Both the position numbers and the translations under genes were made by a program. From assembly GCF_002018365.1 (NCBI RefSeq), contig NZ_MVKX01000003.1, forward strand, positions 124,001 through 188,000: DNA of 64,000 nt, given 5' to 3'. Source of the stretch: Acinetobacter amyesii (GTDB taxonomy: Bacteria > Pseudomonadota > Gammaproteobacteria > Pseudomonadales > Moraxellaceae). Numbering within the stretch: position 1 is the first letter of the stretch; every line of letters starts with the position of its first letter. The notes beneath the pieces are model-generated. The model made no database searches and was not told the DNA's origin. It saw only the letters and a list, made by a program, of their open reading frames with translations. This document shows, piece by piece, positions 1 through 4,857 of this stretch.

Positions 1-612
1 ATATTATCTACTCCTCCACAAGCCTATACTGGAGATTTCATTCGTGATCAAAGTATTTTTAAACAATCTCAATATTTGAAAAATACGGCTCGCTGGCAGC
101 AAGCACAAATTGATGCTGATGTTTCAAATGCACATTTAGGGCGACCTTTTTCATCTGCATTTGGCGTAGAAATTAATGAGAAAAATACACCTATTTTATT
201 TGAAATTTTAAGAAAGATTAAACTTGATAGTAGATACTCTACTCAAACTGCAAAAAAGAAATATAGCCGTGAACGTCCATATGGCTATTTTAATGTCAGC
301 ACTTGTACCCCTGAAGAAGAAAATGAAAAAAATCAATATGTTTCTTATCCTTCTGGACATACAACTATCGGTTGGACATATGCATTAGTCTTAGCAGAGT
401 TACGTCCTGAGCGTCAAAGTCAAATTCTTAAACGTGGTATTGAATTTGGTCAAAGCCGTGTCGTATGTAATATGCACTGGCAAAGCGATGTCGATGCAGG
501 TCGCATAATGGGTGCAGCACAATATGCTCAACTTCAAGCGGACCCTGCATTTAATGCTGATATGCAAAAAGCAAAACTCGAATTACATAGGTTACTTCAA
601 AACGCAAATTAG
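1..612 (+). CDS. Class A acid phosphatase (PAP2 superfamily), 5'-truncated by window edge
   Basis: Periplasmic non-specific acid phosphatase that releases phosphate from organic phosphomonoesters. The frame is open from base 1, so the signal peptide and first part lie outside the window; an apparent TTG start at 76 is internal. All three parts of the PAP2 phosphatase signature are visible in order: a lysine followed by RERP near 260-285, PSGH near 350, and SR-x5-H-x3-D near 450-490 (GQSRVVCNMHWQSD). This arrangement is typical of the PhoN/class A family. It sits tail to tail with phoD, which fits a phosphate-scavenging cluster. Its own promoter is not visible, so membership of the Pho regulon is inferred from position only. 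Confidence 0.88.
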   Translation: MLSTPPQAYTGDFIRDQSIFKQSQYLKNTARWQQAQIDADVSNAHLGRPFSSAFGVEINEKNTPILFEILRKIKLDSRYSTQTAKKKYSRERPYGYFNVSTCTPEEENEKNQYVSYPSGHTTIGWTYALVLAELRPERQSQILKRGIEFGQSRVVCNMHWQSDVDAGRIMGAAQYAQLQADPAFNADMQKAKLELHRLLQNAN

Positions 613-637
613 ACTCATAGAGTAAAATTGTTCTATA

Positions 638-670
638 AAAAATCCCACCAAACAATAAGGTGGGATTTTT
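638..670. terminator. Bidirectional rho-independent terminator
   Basis: A 12-bp perfect stem (AAAAATCCCACC / GGTGGGATTTTT) with a 9-nt loop. The A and T runs on either side let it serve both the acid phosphatase and the converging phoD. Confidence 0.85.
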
Positions 671-761
671 ATCTAATTATAAAAATAATCCGAGGTTAAG
701 TTTTTTAAATATAGGGAGATTAATTGCTATATCTTCTGTAATAACAGTAATCAAAATCATT

Positions 762-2378
762 TTATATCCGCTTTAACTCAGGTTTACCATATGCGACTTC
801 AAAACTTGCTACGGTTGTCATTTTTCCACCTGGTTTTTCAACAAAATCCAGAACCTTTAAGTCTGTACGCATATAGTCTTTAAAAAAGTCTAAGGTCTGG
901 TAACCGCGTTGATCGTTGATAAATTTAATGTGTGGATTCAACTTCAGCACATCTTCCTGCCCTGGACGGGTTGGCTGACCATTGCCGGTAGAAGTTATCG
1001 ATGTGGTTAAAAATTCGGTTGCAATCGATGGGCTCTTATAATCATTCAAATCACTTGGGATATTCGCTGCAAAATATTGATGCAAATCTCCTGATAAAAT
1101 TACCGTATTGCCATGAGGTGCATTTTCTTTGATAGATTCAATCAATCGCTCACGTGCATAAGGATAACCATTCCACGTATCTTTGCCAAAATAAGCCTTA
1201 CCTGATTTGTTATAGCGCACCCAAGGCATCACCTGAATTTGCTGCGCCAATACATTCCAACGCTTATCGTGGCGCATTTGCTTCACCAACCATTGCTCTT
1301 GCGCTTTACCAAGAACCTGCTCATTTCGGCTATTCTCCGTACGGCAATAATCCATTTTATCAAACCCATCTTCTAACTGAGCTTTGGTGCATAAAATTGG
1401 AGAACGGTACTGGCGTGTATCCAAAATATTCATACGCAACATTTTCCCATAATCTAAAGTGCGGTAAGCAAGGATATCTGGGCCATTCGGCTTCTGTTTT
1501 AAGCGCACAGGCATATACTCGTACCACGCTTGAAACGCCGCTGCGCGGCGCAGTAAAAATATGTCTTTCTTCTCGCCTTTTTCTTCAATATCTGCTGCCC
1601 AGTTGTTATCAACTTCATGATCATCAAAGGTCATTGCAAAAGGTGCAGAGGCATGTGCAGCTTGTAAATCAGGATCCGCACGATACTGTGCATAACGAAT
1701 ACGATATTGCAGTAAAGTTTGAATTTCAGGACCAATATGTTGACGTGCAGGAATTGAAACTCTTAGATCTCCAATTGCACGTCCCCCGCCTTTACCCTCT
1801 GGTCCTTCATAAATATAGTCACCATAATGGAAAACTAAATCTATCTCGTTCTCTTTGCTCAAGTAATCATAAGCCGTGTAATAGCCTGTTTCATAATGCT
1901 GACAACCTACTACAGCAACTCGAACTCGTTCTGGCATTTGATGTGCTGCTGGCGCGGATTTTGCTGTACCAACAGAACTTTCATAACCAGCCAATCTAAA
2001 TCGATAATAATAACGTGTCATCGGTGCTAAACTGGTTACCTCCACATGCACTGTGTGATGTAAGTCAGGATGTGCCTGCGCCTTCCCAGTTTGCACAATT
2101 TTTTTAAATTCAATATCTGTAGCAATATCCCAATCTACTTCAACTGCTTCATTGGGCATGCCGCCATCTACAGACAGTGGATAAGGTGCAATACGTGTCC
2201 AAATCACAAAACCATCTGGCCAAGGTTCACCTGAAGCAACGCCTAATTGAAACGGGCTAATCGGAAATTTGACATTTGCCCAGCTGCTTACTGGACTAAG
2301 TCCAGAAAATAACGCTAAAGACCCAACCCCCATCAACCCCTTTAAGAATTGACGACGATTCGAATTAAAATGATTCAT
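762..2378 (-). CDS. phoD: Alkaline phosphatase D (PhoD family), Tat-exported
   Basis: Metal-dependent phosphodiesterase/monoesterase of the periplasm or cell surface, used for phosphate scavenging; family members use iron and calcium. 538 aa, a normal length. The N-terminus has a twin-arginine signal (NRRQFLKG, residues 7-14, then a hydrophobic stretch ending near SSWA). It is followed by a PhoD N-terminal beta domain and the metallophosphatase core: VVGCQHYETG, FHYGDYIYEG, MTFDDHEVDNNW and ILSGDLHQYF hold the expected metal-binding Asp, Asn and His residues. It starts 49 nt after the OprD-type porin on the same strand, so the two probably form one operon driven by the PhoB-type site at 3739-3782. 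Export would need the TatABC system encoded at 24.7-26.2 kb. Confidence 0.93.
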   Translation of the reverse strand: MNHFNSNRRQFLKGLMGVGSLALFSGLSPVSSWANVKFPISPFQLGVASGEPWPDGFVIWTRIAPYPLSVDGGMPNEAVEVDWDIATDIEFKKIVQTGKAQAHPDLHHTVHVEVTSLAPMTRYYYRFRLAGYESSVGTAKSAPAAHQMPERVRVAVVGCQHYETGYYTAYDYLSKENEIDLVFHYGDYIYEGPEGKGGGRAIGDLRVSIPARQHIGPEIQTLLQYRIRYAQYRADPDLQAAHASAPFAMTFDDHEVDNNWAADIEEKGEKKDIFLLRRAAAFQAWYEYMPVRLKQKPNGPDILAYRTLDYGKMLRMNILDTRQYRSPILCTKAQLEDGFDKMDYCRTENSRNEQVLGKAQEQWLVKQMRHDKRWNVLAQQIQVMPWVRYNKSGKAYFGKDTWNGYPYARERLIESIKENAPHGNTVILSGDLHQYFAANIPSDLNDYKSPSIATEFLTTSITSTGNGQPTRPGQEDVLKLNPHIKFINDQRGYQTLDFFKDYMRTDLKVLDFVEKPGGKMTTVASFEVAYGKPELKRI

Positions 2379-2427
2379 TTTTATTTCTCTATAAACTTTT
2401 TAATAAATTAATCTGATCAGTTTTGGA

Positions 2428-3690
2428 TTAGAAAATTGGCATGGTGTAGGTCAAGTAGATACGGCTTTGTTCCTGCTTTGTTCCTGTACTTTTTTTGAAT
2501 TTTCCGTATTGAGCGGTAAAACCTAAATTTTTGAATTTCCCTTCTGGCACTTTATAACGCAAGGTATAATCAATTTCAGACTCAGTTGCACAGCCACACT
2601 TACCAAAATCACGTCCTTGTACTTTCAGGAACGAAACATTTAGGCCTTTCAAGTATTGATCATTAAAGTCATATCGATAGCCATACCATGTGGACTTTTC
2701 ACCTGCATTAGTAAAGTTCTGCAGCAAACGATTAGTTGGCAAATAAATGAACGTACCATCCGCACCATTATCTAAACTGCCCTGATTCATATGCAGAAAA
2801 TCGCCATCATCACCAATTTTTTGCGCGCCGAATTGCAGCTGATGATTTTTAAATTTGTATTTGAAGTCCACACTGGCTGTCTGGTTATCTACTTTCGTGC
2901 CGTAGCCTTTTTCACCACGCTCATTAGCTCCAGTCGCTTGAGTATCAAATAAACGTAAGTCTGTATTAAAACTTTGATTTTCACTGAATGGAAATTTGTG
3001 TTTCACACCGACAAATTGTTGTACATAAAAATCATCCAGCTCACCTGCATAATACTGCAGCGTTAAATTTTTATTGGGCTTCCAGTCCGCACCGCCAAAT
3101 ATAAAACCGTCACTGGTTTCTGTTGCGCCTTTTATAGAAAGCTTTGAAGCATCTCGTGATGCACGTGGAATTGCTTTGGTGACATAACCTCCAGTTAAAG
3201 TCAGCCCTTTCACATCTTTAGAAGTGACTTGACCACCTAAATAGGCAGATTCGAGCAAGCGAGCAAAGCTTCGACTCAAAATGGGTAAATTAGGGCGTAA
3301 CTCCCCGACTTTTACATCAGTTTTCTGATAGCGCGCTTTTAAAGTGGGATATGCACGTGTCCAATAATTTGTTGGACTACCATCACCCTCTAGAGGAAAC
3401 ATCAATGAATTTTTGGCTTTATCTTTGCTTCCGTCTAAACGTATACCTGCTGCCACAGTCGCATCTAAGCCAAAACCGACTTGACCTTCCGTAAAGCCAG
3501 ACTGATAACTCAATTCAATACCTTGCCCCCAGACTGTCGAATCTTTATCGTTAGGCTCTTGATCTTGATCAAAATAATAATTTTTAAAGTCTATTTCTGC
3601 TTTACTATCTTTAATAAATTCTGCTTGTGCTTCTTGCATTGTAAGCATTGGGGTGAAAGCCATACAGCAAATGAGTGCTTTGTAATTCAA
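2428..3690 (-). CDS. OprD-family outer-membrane porin
   Basis: Outer-membrane beta-barrel channel. 420 aa, with a signal peptide ending at EAQA (about residue 23), alternating aromatic/polar strands throughout, and a C-terminal Phe (TMPIF) as needed for BAM-dependent insertion. The sequence style (FIKDSKAEIDFKNYYFD, LKARYQKTDVKVGELRP) is that of the OprD family of substrate-specific porins. The first gene of a likely two-gene operon with phoD, behind a four-repeat PhoB-type site 49 nt upstream. Family members take up amino acids, aromatic acids or other small anions. Here the context suggests phosphate or a phosphate ester, but no substrate can be read from the sequence. Confidence 0.85.
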   Translation of the reverse strand: MNYKALICCMAFTPMLTMQEAQAEFIKDSKAEIDFKNYYFDQDQEPNDKDSTVWGQGIELSYQSGFTEGQVGFGLDATVAAGIRLDGSKDKAKNSLMFPLEGDGSPTNYWTRAYPTLKARYQKTDVKVGELRPNLPILSRSFARLLESAYLGGQVTSKDVKGLTLTGGYVTKAIPRASRDASKLSIKGATETSDGFIFGGADWKPNKNLTLQYYAGELDDFYVQQFVGVKHKFPFSENQSFNTDLRLFDTQATGANERGEKGYGTKVDNQTASVDFKYKFKNHQLQFGAQKIGDDGDFLHMNQGSLDNGADGTFIYLPTNRLLQNFTNAGEKSTWYGYRYDFNDQYLKGLNVSFLKVQGRDFGKCGCATESEIDYTLRYKVPEGKFKNLGFTAQYGKFKKSTGTKQEQSRIYLTYTMPIF

Positions 3691-3738
3691 TGTCTAACCT
3701 CTTTGGTCCTTGAGAAATACTGCAATAACCTAAAGACT

Positions 3739-3782
3739 CTGTATGACAATACACTTGCAATCACATGACAATTACATGAAAA
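3739..3782 (-). promoter_or_regulatory. PhoB-type box, four 11-bp repeats, upstream of oprD-phoD
   Basis: On the minus strand four consecutive 11-mers each begin with a PhoB half-site-like sequence: TTTTCATGTAA, TTGTCATGTGA, TTGCAAGTGTA, TTGTCATACAG. Two are perfect TTGTCAT. Ten nucleotides after the last TTGTCAT comes TAGGTT (3732-3727), a weak -10 candidate. The 11-bp periodicity and 10-nt spacing are those of PhoB-activated promoters such as E. coli phoA. The gene start is at 3690. Confidence 0.8.
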
Positions 3783-4402: not shown

Positions 4403-4550
4403 TTTTATTTTATCCCTCAAATAATTCCTTCAAAATTTAGCGTTTATAATTAAAGTCTTGTAAAAAATTGAAAGCGCTAGCGATCGACGATGATTATCAC
4501 TCTGACGCAAACTGATGCAAAGACTAAAAATTAGCTATTACTCATGATTA

Positions 4551-4654
4551 GATTTGAAGATTTGAGGATTTGAAGATTTGAAGATTTGAAGATTTGAAGA
4601 TTTGAAGATTTGAAGATTTGAAGATTTGAAGATTTGAAGATTTGAAGATTTGAA
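4551..4654. repeat. 13-copy tandem octamer repeat (GATTTGAA)n
   Basis: Thirteen back-to-back copies of the 8-mer GATTTGAA (104 bp); only the second copy differs (GATTTGAG). Because 8 is not a multiple of 3, any frame through it gives an 8-residue periodic peptide, which explains a spurious minus-strand reading frame here. It lies between a small PhoB-type transcription unit and the GNAT gene. Such uniform repeats usually change copy number by slippage. Confidence 0.97.
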
Positions 4655-4687
4655 GAAGAATATTATTTTTTATAAAATTTAAAGCAG

Positions 4688-4722
4688 AAAAAAAAGAAGA
4701 TAAAGCTTTAGGCTTGATCTTC
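4688..4722 (-). terminator. Rho-independent terminator overlapping the end of the 28-codon ORF
   Basis: On the minus strand GAAGAT-C-AAGC pairs with GCTT-T-ATCTTC around a CTAAA loop (ten base pairs, one mismatch), followed after no gap by eight T. The stop codon of the small ORF lies in the loop, so stem and coding sequence overlap. Confidence 0.8.
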
Positions 4723-4794
4723 TTGTTGACCGTAGAACCAAGTTGCTGCGATAAACAGAGAAAAACCAATAACTGACAACACTGGAGTAACCAT
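4708..4794 (-). CDS. 28-aa single-span membrane peptide (or leader of a small RNA), Pho-type promoter
   Basis: Too short for ordinary gene calling. ATG at 4794-4792 reads through MVTPVLSVIGFSLFIAATW, a hydrophobic span of about 17 residues, and then a short hydrophilic tail FYGQQEDQA before TAA. I recognise no family (it is not CydX-, KdpF- or AcrZ-like by eye). Supporting facts: a strong PhoB-type promoter at 4824-4857 points straight at it, a good terminator closes it at 4688, and nothing else lies in that transcript of about 130 nt. Against: the ribosome-binding site is weak (GAG about 12 nt upstream). The transcript could therefore be a PhoB-controlled small RNA, a small membrane protein, or both. 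Confidence 0.55.
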   Translation of the reverse strand: MVTPVLSVIGFSLFIAATWFYGQQEDQA

Positions 4795-4823
4795 ATATTT
4801 CACACTCTAACTTTGATGACGTC

Positions 4824-4857
4824 ATTATGTAAAAGTTTTATGACAGTTATATGACAA
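4824..4857 (-). promoter_or_regulatory. PhoB-type promoter of the 28-codon unit
   Basis: Minus strand: TTGTCATATAA (4857-4847) and CTGTCATAAAA (4846-4836), two adjacent 11-mers almost identical to the enterobacterial Pho-box consensus. Exactly 10 nt after the second CTGTCAT is CATAAT (4829-4824), a five-of-six match to the -10 consensus. Predicted transcription start is near 4817. This is the best Pho box in the window. Confidence 0.82.

Follow-up and report, generated by a model that had tools for sequence, protein, structure and literature searches.

Does the 28-codon open reading frame (ORF) that lies between a Pho box-like sequence and a terminator in the window, i.e. in the whole 64,000-nt stretch of Acinetobacter DNA that was analysed, constitute a gene of the phosphate response, and is its product a protein, an RNA or both? 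The original prediction had described a PhoB-type layout, consisting of a Pho box, 10 nt, CATAAT, the 28-codon ORF and a terminator that holds the stop codon in its loop, and this arrangement was confirmed in the sequence of the minus strand, where the following features are located:

4857-4688, minus strand: the whole unit, with Pho box, -10 element, 28-codon ORF and nested terminator.
4857-4836, minus strand: Pho box made of two 11-nt direct repeats, TTGTCATATAA and CTGTCATAAAA, recognised by sequence and conservation.
Ending at 4840, minus strand: 18-nt form of the Pho box, TTGTCATATAACTGTCAT, recognised by sequence.
4829-4824, minus strand: -10 element CATAAT, 10 nt past the 18-nt form of the Pho box and without a separate -35 element.
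4794-4708 (stop included), minus strand: 28-codon ORF for a predicted single-span membrane protein, MVTPVLSVIGFSLFIAATWFYGQQEDQA, with ATG at 4794 and TAA at 4710-4708.
4724-4688, minus strand: intrinsic terminator in the last codons, with arms at 4724-4712 and 4706-4694 and the stop codon in the loop.
4695-4688, minus strand: 8-T tract of the terminator, recognised by sequence.
4550-4656, minus strand: tandem array (CTTCAAAT)n of 13.4 copies, G-free on the minus strand, associated with the unit and not claimed as part of the transcript.

The transcript of this unit is predicted to be about 130 nt long, if transcription is assumed to start about 7 nt past the -10 element, near position 4817, and taken as a whole it shows no unusual degree of structure (z -1.27; of 200 shuffled sequences, 25 fold equally well). 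Judged by eye, the Shine-Dalgarno sequence of the window copy is weak. The nested terminator was not listed by a simple consensus terminator scan, apparently due to an internal mismatch in its stem.

In PhoB-dependent promoters, the Pho box replaces the -35 element and is located 10 nt before the -10 element. The unit displays this architecture, and its box also shows the repeat structure given for Pho boxes in an excerpt of PMC4415409, namely two 11-nt direct repeats, each composed of 7 well-conserved and 4 less conserved nucleotides. From Acinetobacter, 65 sequence-distinct units were gathered by script, and this set underlies the counts for promoter, terminator and array. The script selected ATG-to-stop frames with [TV]W-x-[YF]G and F..[YFC] (later counts also required the Y), so that the F and W-x-Y-G residues are constrained by construction among the 65 units. 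The set excludes L084, a second copy that is truncated, the two decayed copies L082 and L083, L081 and L202, which are partly masked, and sequences that are near-duplicates.

Among the 12 positions of the paired hexamers of the Pho box, no mismatch was found in 55 of the 65 units, one mismatch in 9 and three mismatches in 1, so 64/65 units have a box with at most one mismatch, and the identical 22-mer Pho box is present in 26/65. The -10 element reads CATAAT in 57/65 units, GATAAT in 5 and differently in 3, and its distance from the box is identical in 62/65. With the exception of variable spacer bases, the columns of box and -10 element are mostly 85-100% conserved; for 32 columns upstream the values are 34-74%. 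At the level of chance, 2 of 2000 shuffled upstream regions contained a box with at most one mismatch of 12. Of the 99 genomes that gave no credible match to the ORF, 60 were analysed at the same place, upstream of the fumarase gene (800 nt were fetched for each and about 400 nt for G015), and there a box with at most one mismatch was found in 0/60 and one with two mismatches in 3/60. At the level of sequence, these data show a promoter of PhoB-dependent architecture that has been kept together with the ORF, from which control by PhoB and expression of the unit are predicted. In six loci (L160, L172, L178, L180, L184, L185) the Pho box comprises 2.9-3.8 units of 11 nt and was called a tandem array by TRF, and a third Pho half-site may be present in these species. 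An 11-nt-phased third hexamer upstream of the box is not general across the units.

Pho-like sequences occur at other places of this genome as well. A phoB-phoR pair is present (L118; a protein with Response_reg and Trans_reg_C domains, followed by a kinase with a PhoR domain), and a Pho-like box with 1 mismatch lies before it; boxes of this kind, with 0-1 mismatch of 12, are also located before a PHO4-family (PiT) transporter, GDPD and an OprD porin. Near the start of the PHO4-family phosphate transporter (L106) lies a paired Pho hexamer without mismatch, TGTCATATAATTGTCAT (G000:C9:130266-130282, minus strand). Before the OprD-family porin in the window, a Pho-like box, TTTCATGTAATTGTCAT, is found at 3765-3781 on the minus strand, and the PAP2 phosphatase, PhoD and OprD-family porin encoded at 76-3781 likely form a Pho cluster. 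A genome-wide scan with a two-mismatch Pho pattern was noisy: it gave 420 sites, compared with 250 when the reversed pattern was used as control, and some of the sites that match perfectly are found within or next to genes for which no phosphate role is known. Single Pho sites therefore prove little, and it is their conservation that constitutes the argument.

The frame, the start region and the stop region of the ORF agree across the 65 units, and longer readings starting with GTG or TTG receive no support from the conserved ATG. A loose Shine-Dalgarno-like motif is present within 18 nt 5' of the ATG in 55/65 units (raw count). When 60 distinct sequences were compared over the 19 codons that precede the terminator overlap, dN/dS was 0.23 in frame versus 1.25 and 1.51 in the shifted frames, and an uncorrected pN/pS of 0.12 was obtained for 59 pairs within 10% divergence (20 codons). 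Mean entropy was 1.15 at third codon positions versus 0.59 and 0.46 at the others, and in 24 aligned homologues the residues F, W, Y and G are invariant. These substitution patterns show that the ORF is under purifying, protein-coding selection.

As called in the 65 units, the predicted protein is 24-31 aa long and its best 17-residue hydropathy ranges from 1.71 to 2.94; for residues 1-17 of the window copy, the mean Kyte-Doolittle hydropathy is 2.12. Net charge is 0 before the W in 63/65 units and -1 or -2 from the W onward in 59/65, and membrane topology is ambiguous from charge. In its size (below about 50 residues) and in its one hydrophobic helix, the protein corresponds to small membrane regulators of the MgtS and YoaI kind. 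Conservation in relatives was the test set beforehand for the predicted small membrane protein with a phosphate-starvation-type promoter, and the prediction held: the ORF frame and the promoter are kept in close Acinetobacter relatives, and frame, start, stop, Pho box and -10 element are conserved across dozens of species. Judged from these sequences, the unit is very probably a real, undescribed small-protein gene.

A regulatory RNA or a dual-function RNA had been offered as further options for the same transcript. As a dual-function RNA, the transcript would encode the peptide and also base-pair with other mRNAs, a combination for which VcdRP from Vibrio cholerae provides a precedent, as it possesses a 29-residue ORF and a base-pairing segment and is repressed by CRP (PMC8672173). 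The Acinetobacter transcript contains a similarly short ORF, is itself short and ends in a strong terminator, but in contrast to VcdRP it shows no sign of a base-pairing segment. In 64/65 units, a T-tract follows the ORF, and in 63/65 a fold below -4 kcal/mol is found there; among the 64 T-tract units, 56 have the stop codon unpaired within the loop, and in the other 8 it is paired or partly paired. Two of the diverged copies located near hisA are included in this terminator count, and these two have a different, weaker hairpin. In L055, L054, L080, L094, L208 and L211, the ORF ends two codons earlier with the hairpin kept. Within the 5' arm, three codons show no synonymous variation (Asp GAT 57/57, Glu GAA 61/61, Lys AAA 47/47), which speaks for a dual-function RNA; however, the next two arm codons vary (synonymous identity 0.51 and 0.37), synonymous identity per codon outside the arm is 0.35-0.75 with one Tyr codon at 0.96, the 5' UTR is conserved only in part, and Rfam gave 0 matches at gathering thresholds in the 64-kb window. 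When the 3' arm was shuffled the hairpin was lost (0% equally strong). Arm swaps gave no sign of covariation, swapped hairpins being weaker than the average of the two native ones in 47% of 858 swaps and having a mean of -10.98 versus -11.18 kcal/mol for native ones; covariation support is lacking because the arms hardly vary. One compensated terminator change was seen in the L051/L065 lineage and was not relied on.

Relocated copies of the unit also bear on the question of protein or RNA. A diverged copy is located near hisA, between a LysR-type regulator gene and an ORF, in G132, G144 and G342 (L206, L207, L203; genes named by sequence look); in G077 (L205) a copy lies beside a glnA-like gene, again named by look, and in the fragmented assembly of G032 (L202) a tandem, partly masked pair is found beside glnA- and ispA-like genes. 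All of these relocated copies keep the ORF and a Pho-type box, which in the near-hisA copies has one mismatch and is followed by a poor and off-spaced -10 element, but none of them has the nested KEDQA terminator. In G077 and G032, another hairpin-like stretch can be seen by eye further downstream. Since two relocated lineages keep box and ORF and not the nested terminator, the product that has been conserved appears to be the protein and not the RNA. Together with the synonymous variation outside the three arm codons, this weakened the RNA options of the original prediction, and we consider a dual-function RNA unlikely.

A DNA search of 149 congeneric genomes gave matches in 69, some of them short and covering the box or the terminator alone. 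A profile built from 24 homologues (A1) was searched against 175 Acinetobacter genomes and matched 82 at E<=0.1, of which 76 were found at E<=4e-8; the six matches at E 0.045-0.076 were judged not credible, and G046 contains a further, partly masked copy. As the gene was not found in 99/175 genomes, including the one with the partly masked copy, it is not essential to the genus. In a collection of named loci, the peptide pattern was matched by 79 stretches, of which 49 encode a relative; these are all from Acinetobacter and include A. lwoffii, A. schindleri and A. indicus, and many of the 49 loci come from the same strains as the genome set. An order-wide search of 341 evenly drawn genomes returned the own genus and two weak matches (E 0.0017 and 0.0066), which were rejected as neither had a Pho box (the best sites showed 6 and 3 mismatches of 12) and as they lay in longer frames or were unlike the unit. 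Single-sequence searching of 299 family genomes gave ten weak raw matches in other genera (E 0.029-0.064).

In 48/49 named loci, the unit has a divergent class I fumarase gene as its neighbour, and fumarase is present in 36/40 further loci, decayed and masked copies included. The gene on the other side varies and can be a convergent pta-like gene, a co-directional methyltransferase-like gene or another one (names by sequence look), and of the 43 named loci in which a next ORF was called, 24 have it on the opposite strand. This variation bears on the idea of a leader peptide with attenuator, according to which a ribosome at the stop codon would block the hairpin so that transcription enters the downstream gene. 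An unpaired stop codon in the loop of 56/64 units is what such a device might use; nevertheless, a leader peptide is disfavoured by the unconserved and frequently opposite downstream gene, and the peptide is conserved along its length and not in a run of regulatory codons, which leaves attenuation hardly probable at all.

The conserved neighbourhood is likewise relevant to the idea that the protein is the small, hydrophobic toxin of a type I toxin-antitoxin system or a peptide of general membrane stress, either of which would agree with its size and hydrophobicity; 1 of the 24 members even resembles Pfam Ibs_toxin weakly (E 0.088). Yet the locus is chromosomal and its synteny with fumarase is conserved in nearly all named loci, the promoter is of the starvation type, the W-x-Y-G motif is conserved and, in a scan of antisense promoters by consensus, no antisense unit was recognised. 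Plasmids gave no match in the DNA search and one chance-level match otherwise, and viral contigs gave none, so that a toxin or stress peptide appears quite improbable.

In a one-gene fumarase tree with 61 present and 62 absent rows, in which identical sequences were used once, the presence of the unit requires at least 12 changes, 9 of them forced by well-supported branches, and 0 of 500 shuffles were as low. From this tree and the shared synteny, the gene would appear to be old in the genus and to have been lost repeatedly. In G037 and G081, ORF and box are both decayed, and terminator and array are still visible. In L084 (G074), a second copy of the ORF, truncated at its 5' end and accompanied by terminator and octamer array, lies immediately upstream of porin-phoD in the same orientation. 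This arrangement points to recombination as the event that placed the porin-phoD block next to the unit.

Behind the terminator, the octamer CTTCAAAT occurs in the window as a tandem array, and nowhere else in this genome is it found as three exact copies. Tandem arrays with a period of at least 5 and at least 2.8 copies are present within 300 nt past the stop codon in 34/65 units and absent from 31/65; the array of L037 is doubtful (period 9, A-rich, no C). The other 33 arrays start 29-52 nt past the stop codon, have periods of 8 (28 arrays), 7 (4) or 5 (1), contain 0 G and 2-3 C per repeat unit on the strand of the unit and consist of six repeat units (CTTCAAAT, TCTCAAA, TTCTCAA, TCATCAAC, TTACATTC and TTCCT). 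When the 49 named loci were divided into 300-nt tiles (1475 in total), 29 such arrays, distributed over 28 loci, were detected at this place and only 6 elsewhere, and all 6 were Pho boxes. Fumarase loci without the ORF have an array in 3/62 cases, all in the clade with decayed copies. The exact octamer triple is present in 36/173 genomes, 32 of them with the ORF; in G037, G081 and G134 it is at the same place with the ORF decayed or missing, and in G126 it is at an unrelated place. A role as insulator of a co-directional downstream gene was rejected, as the presence of the array is independent of the direction of the next gene (where the array is present, the next gene is '+' in 9 loci and '-' in 14; where it is absent, '+' in 10 and '-' in 10). 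Since Rho prefers C-containing, G-poor RNA, the array might serve as a Rho-loading or decoy sequence in cases where transcription runs past the terminator; alternatively, it might be a site for a DNA-binding protein. That the unit is a compact stress module, whose array is kept in about half of the units with a repeat sequence that turns over, acts on RNA or DNA and shapes expression from the starvation promoter, is possible but doubtful, and the array may be the result of slippage without function.

In the open-licence PMC literature on the Acinetobacter phosphate response and on small proteins, the gene was not found described in titles, abstract starts and top matches listed. In A. baumannii, PhoBR controls olsB and phosphate limitation alters membrane lipids and drug tolerance (PMC11828411), and 'small protein' does not occur in the searched portion of that text; in the corresponding portion of a paper on a finder for small membrane proteins (PMC10903887), Acinetobacter is not mentioned. 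The protein had been said to match no named family, and the family searches bear this out: the best E values were 0.012 in Pfam (2/24 members), 0.33 in NCBIfam (1/24 members) and 0.056 in PHROGs (3/24 members), all of them weak and inconsistent with one another and none convincing in PHROGs, and there was no match in PDB or Rfam. The protein is a new family among small membrane proteins.

Proteins this small often act by binding larger membrane proteins, and one small membrane protein, MgtS, belongs to magnesium starvation. MgtS from E. coli, with 31 aa, has the PiT-family transporter PitA as a target and also stabilises MgtA (PMC10710835), and it is of the same size class as the 28-residue protein. 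YoaI from E. coli (34 aa) is encoded by a gene under PhoR-PhoB transcriptional control (PMC11853020, PMC10294691) and activates EnvZ-OmpR (PMC11853020); it resembles the Acinetobacter case as a small protein with PhoR-PhoB-type control, which is predicted here, but its gene neighbours are not those of the Acinetobacter unit, and homology was not found when A1 was aligned with YoaI by hhalign (probability 0.4%, 1 aligned column). Small DUF1127 proteins tune phosphate metabolism through PhoR according to PMC12501420, the abstract of which contains no word on membrane helices, and DUF1127 is absent for all 24 members among the matches listed.

Because of the MgtS-PitA, YoaI-EnvZ-OmpR and DUF1127-PhoR precedents, modulation of PiT, Pst or PhoR is favoured. 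We assign a probability of about 0.65 to the reading that the unit is a monocistronic gene activated by PhoB and that its 28-residue product is an inner-membrane protein which modulates a partner in phosphate uptake or sensing. Under phosphate starvation, PhoB activated by PhoR would switch the gene on, and the nested terminator would give a compact transcript of about 130 nt. The peptide would insert as one helix, with a V/I-rich first half and the conserved F and I-A-A-T-W-x-Y-G, and a short, mostly acidic tail would follow the helix. By analogy with the precedents, it may bind to a larger protein of the inner membrane that takes part in phosphate uptake or sensing and alter the activity or stability of that protein, and the first candidate partners would be a PiT-type phosphate transporter, the Pst system and PhoR.

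Two other candidates were rejected on the basis of association counts in 173 genomes, for which the masked G046 was taken as present. Neighbouring PhoD showed no positive association, being present in 31/76 genomes with the ORF versus 66/97 without it; if anything, it is rarer where the ORF is present (Fisher p 0.0004, a statistic that ignores phylogeny). A Na/Pi cotransporter showed no association (23/76 with the ORF versus 34/97 without it). No partner is indicated, because the downstream gene varies, fumarase is not a phosphate gene, and PhoD and the Na/Pi cotransporter are not positively associated with the ORF.

In this unit, terminator and coding sequence overlap, so that the same nucleotides are naturally subject to two constraints. 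For the genus, the analysis means that 76/175 sampled Acinetobacter genomes carry a protein that the searched family libraries lack, and if the favoured reading is true, a PhoB-controlled membrane peptide would be a plausible unseen part of the Acinetobacter phosphate response.
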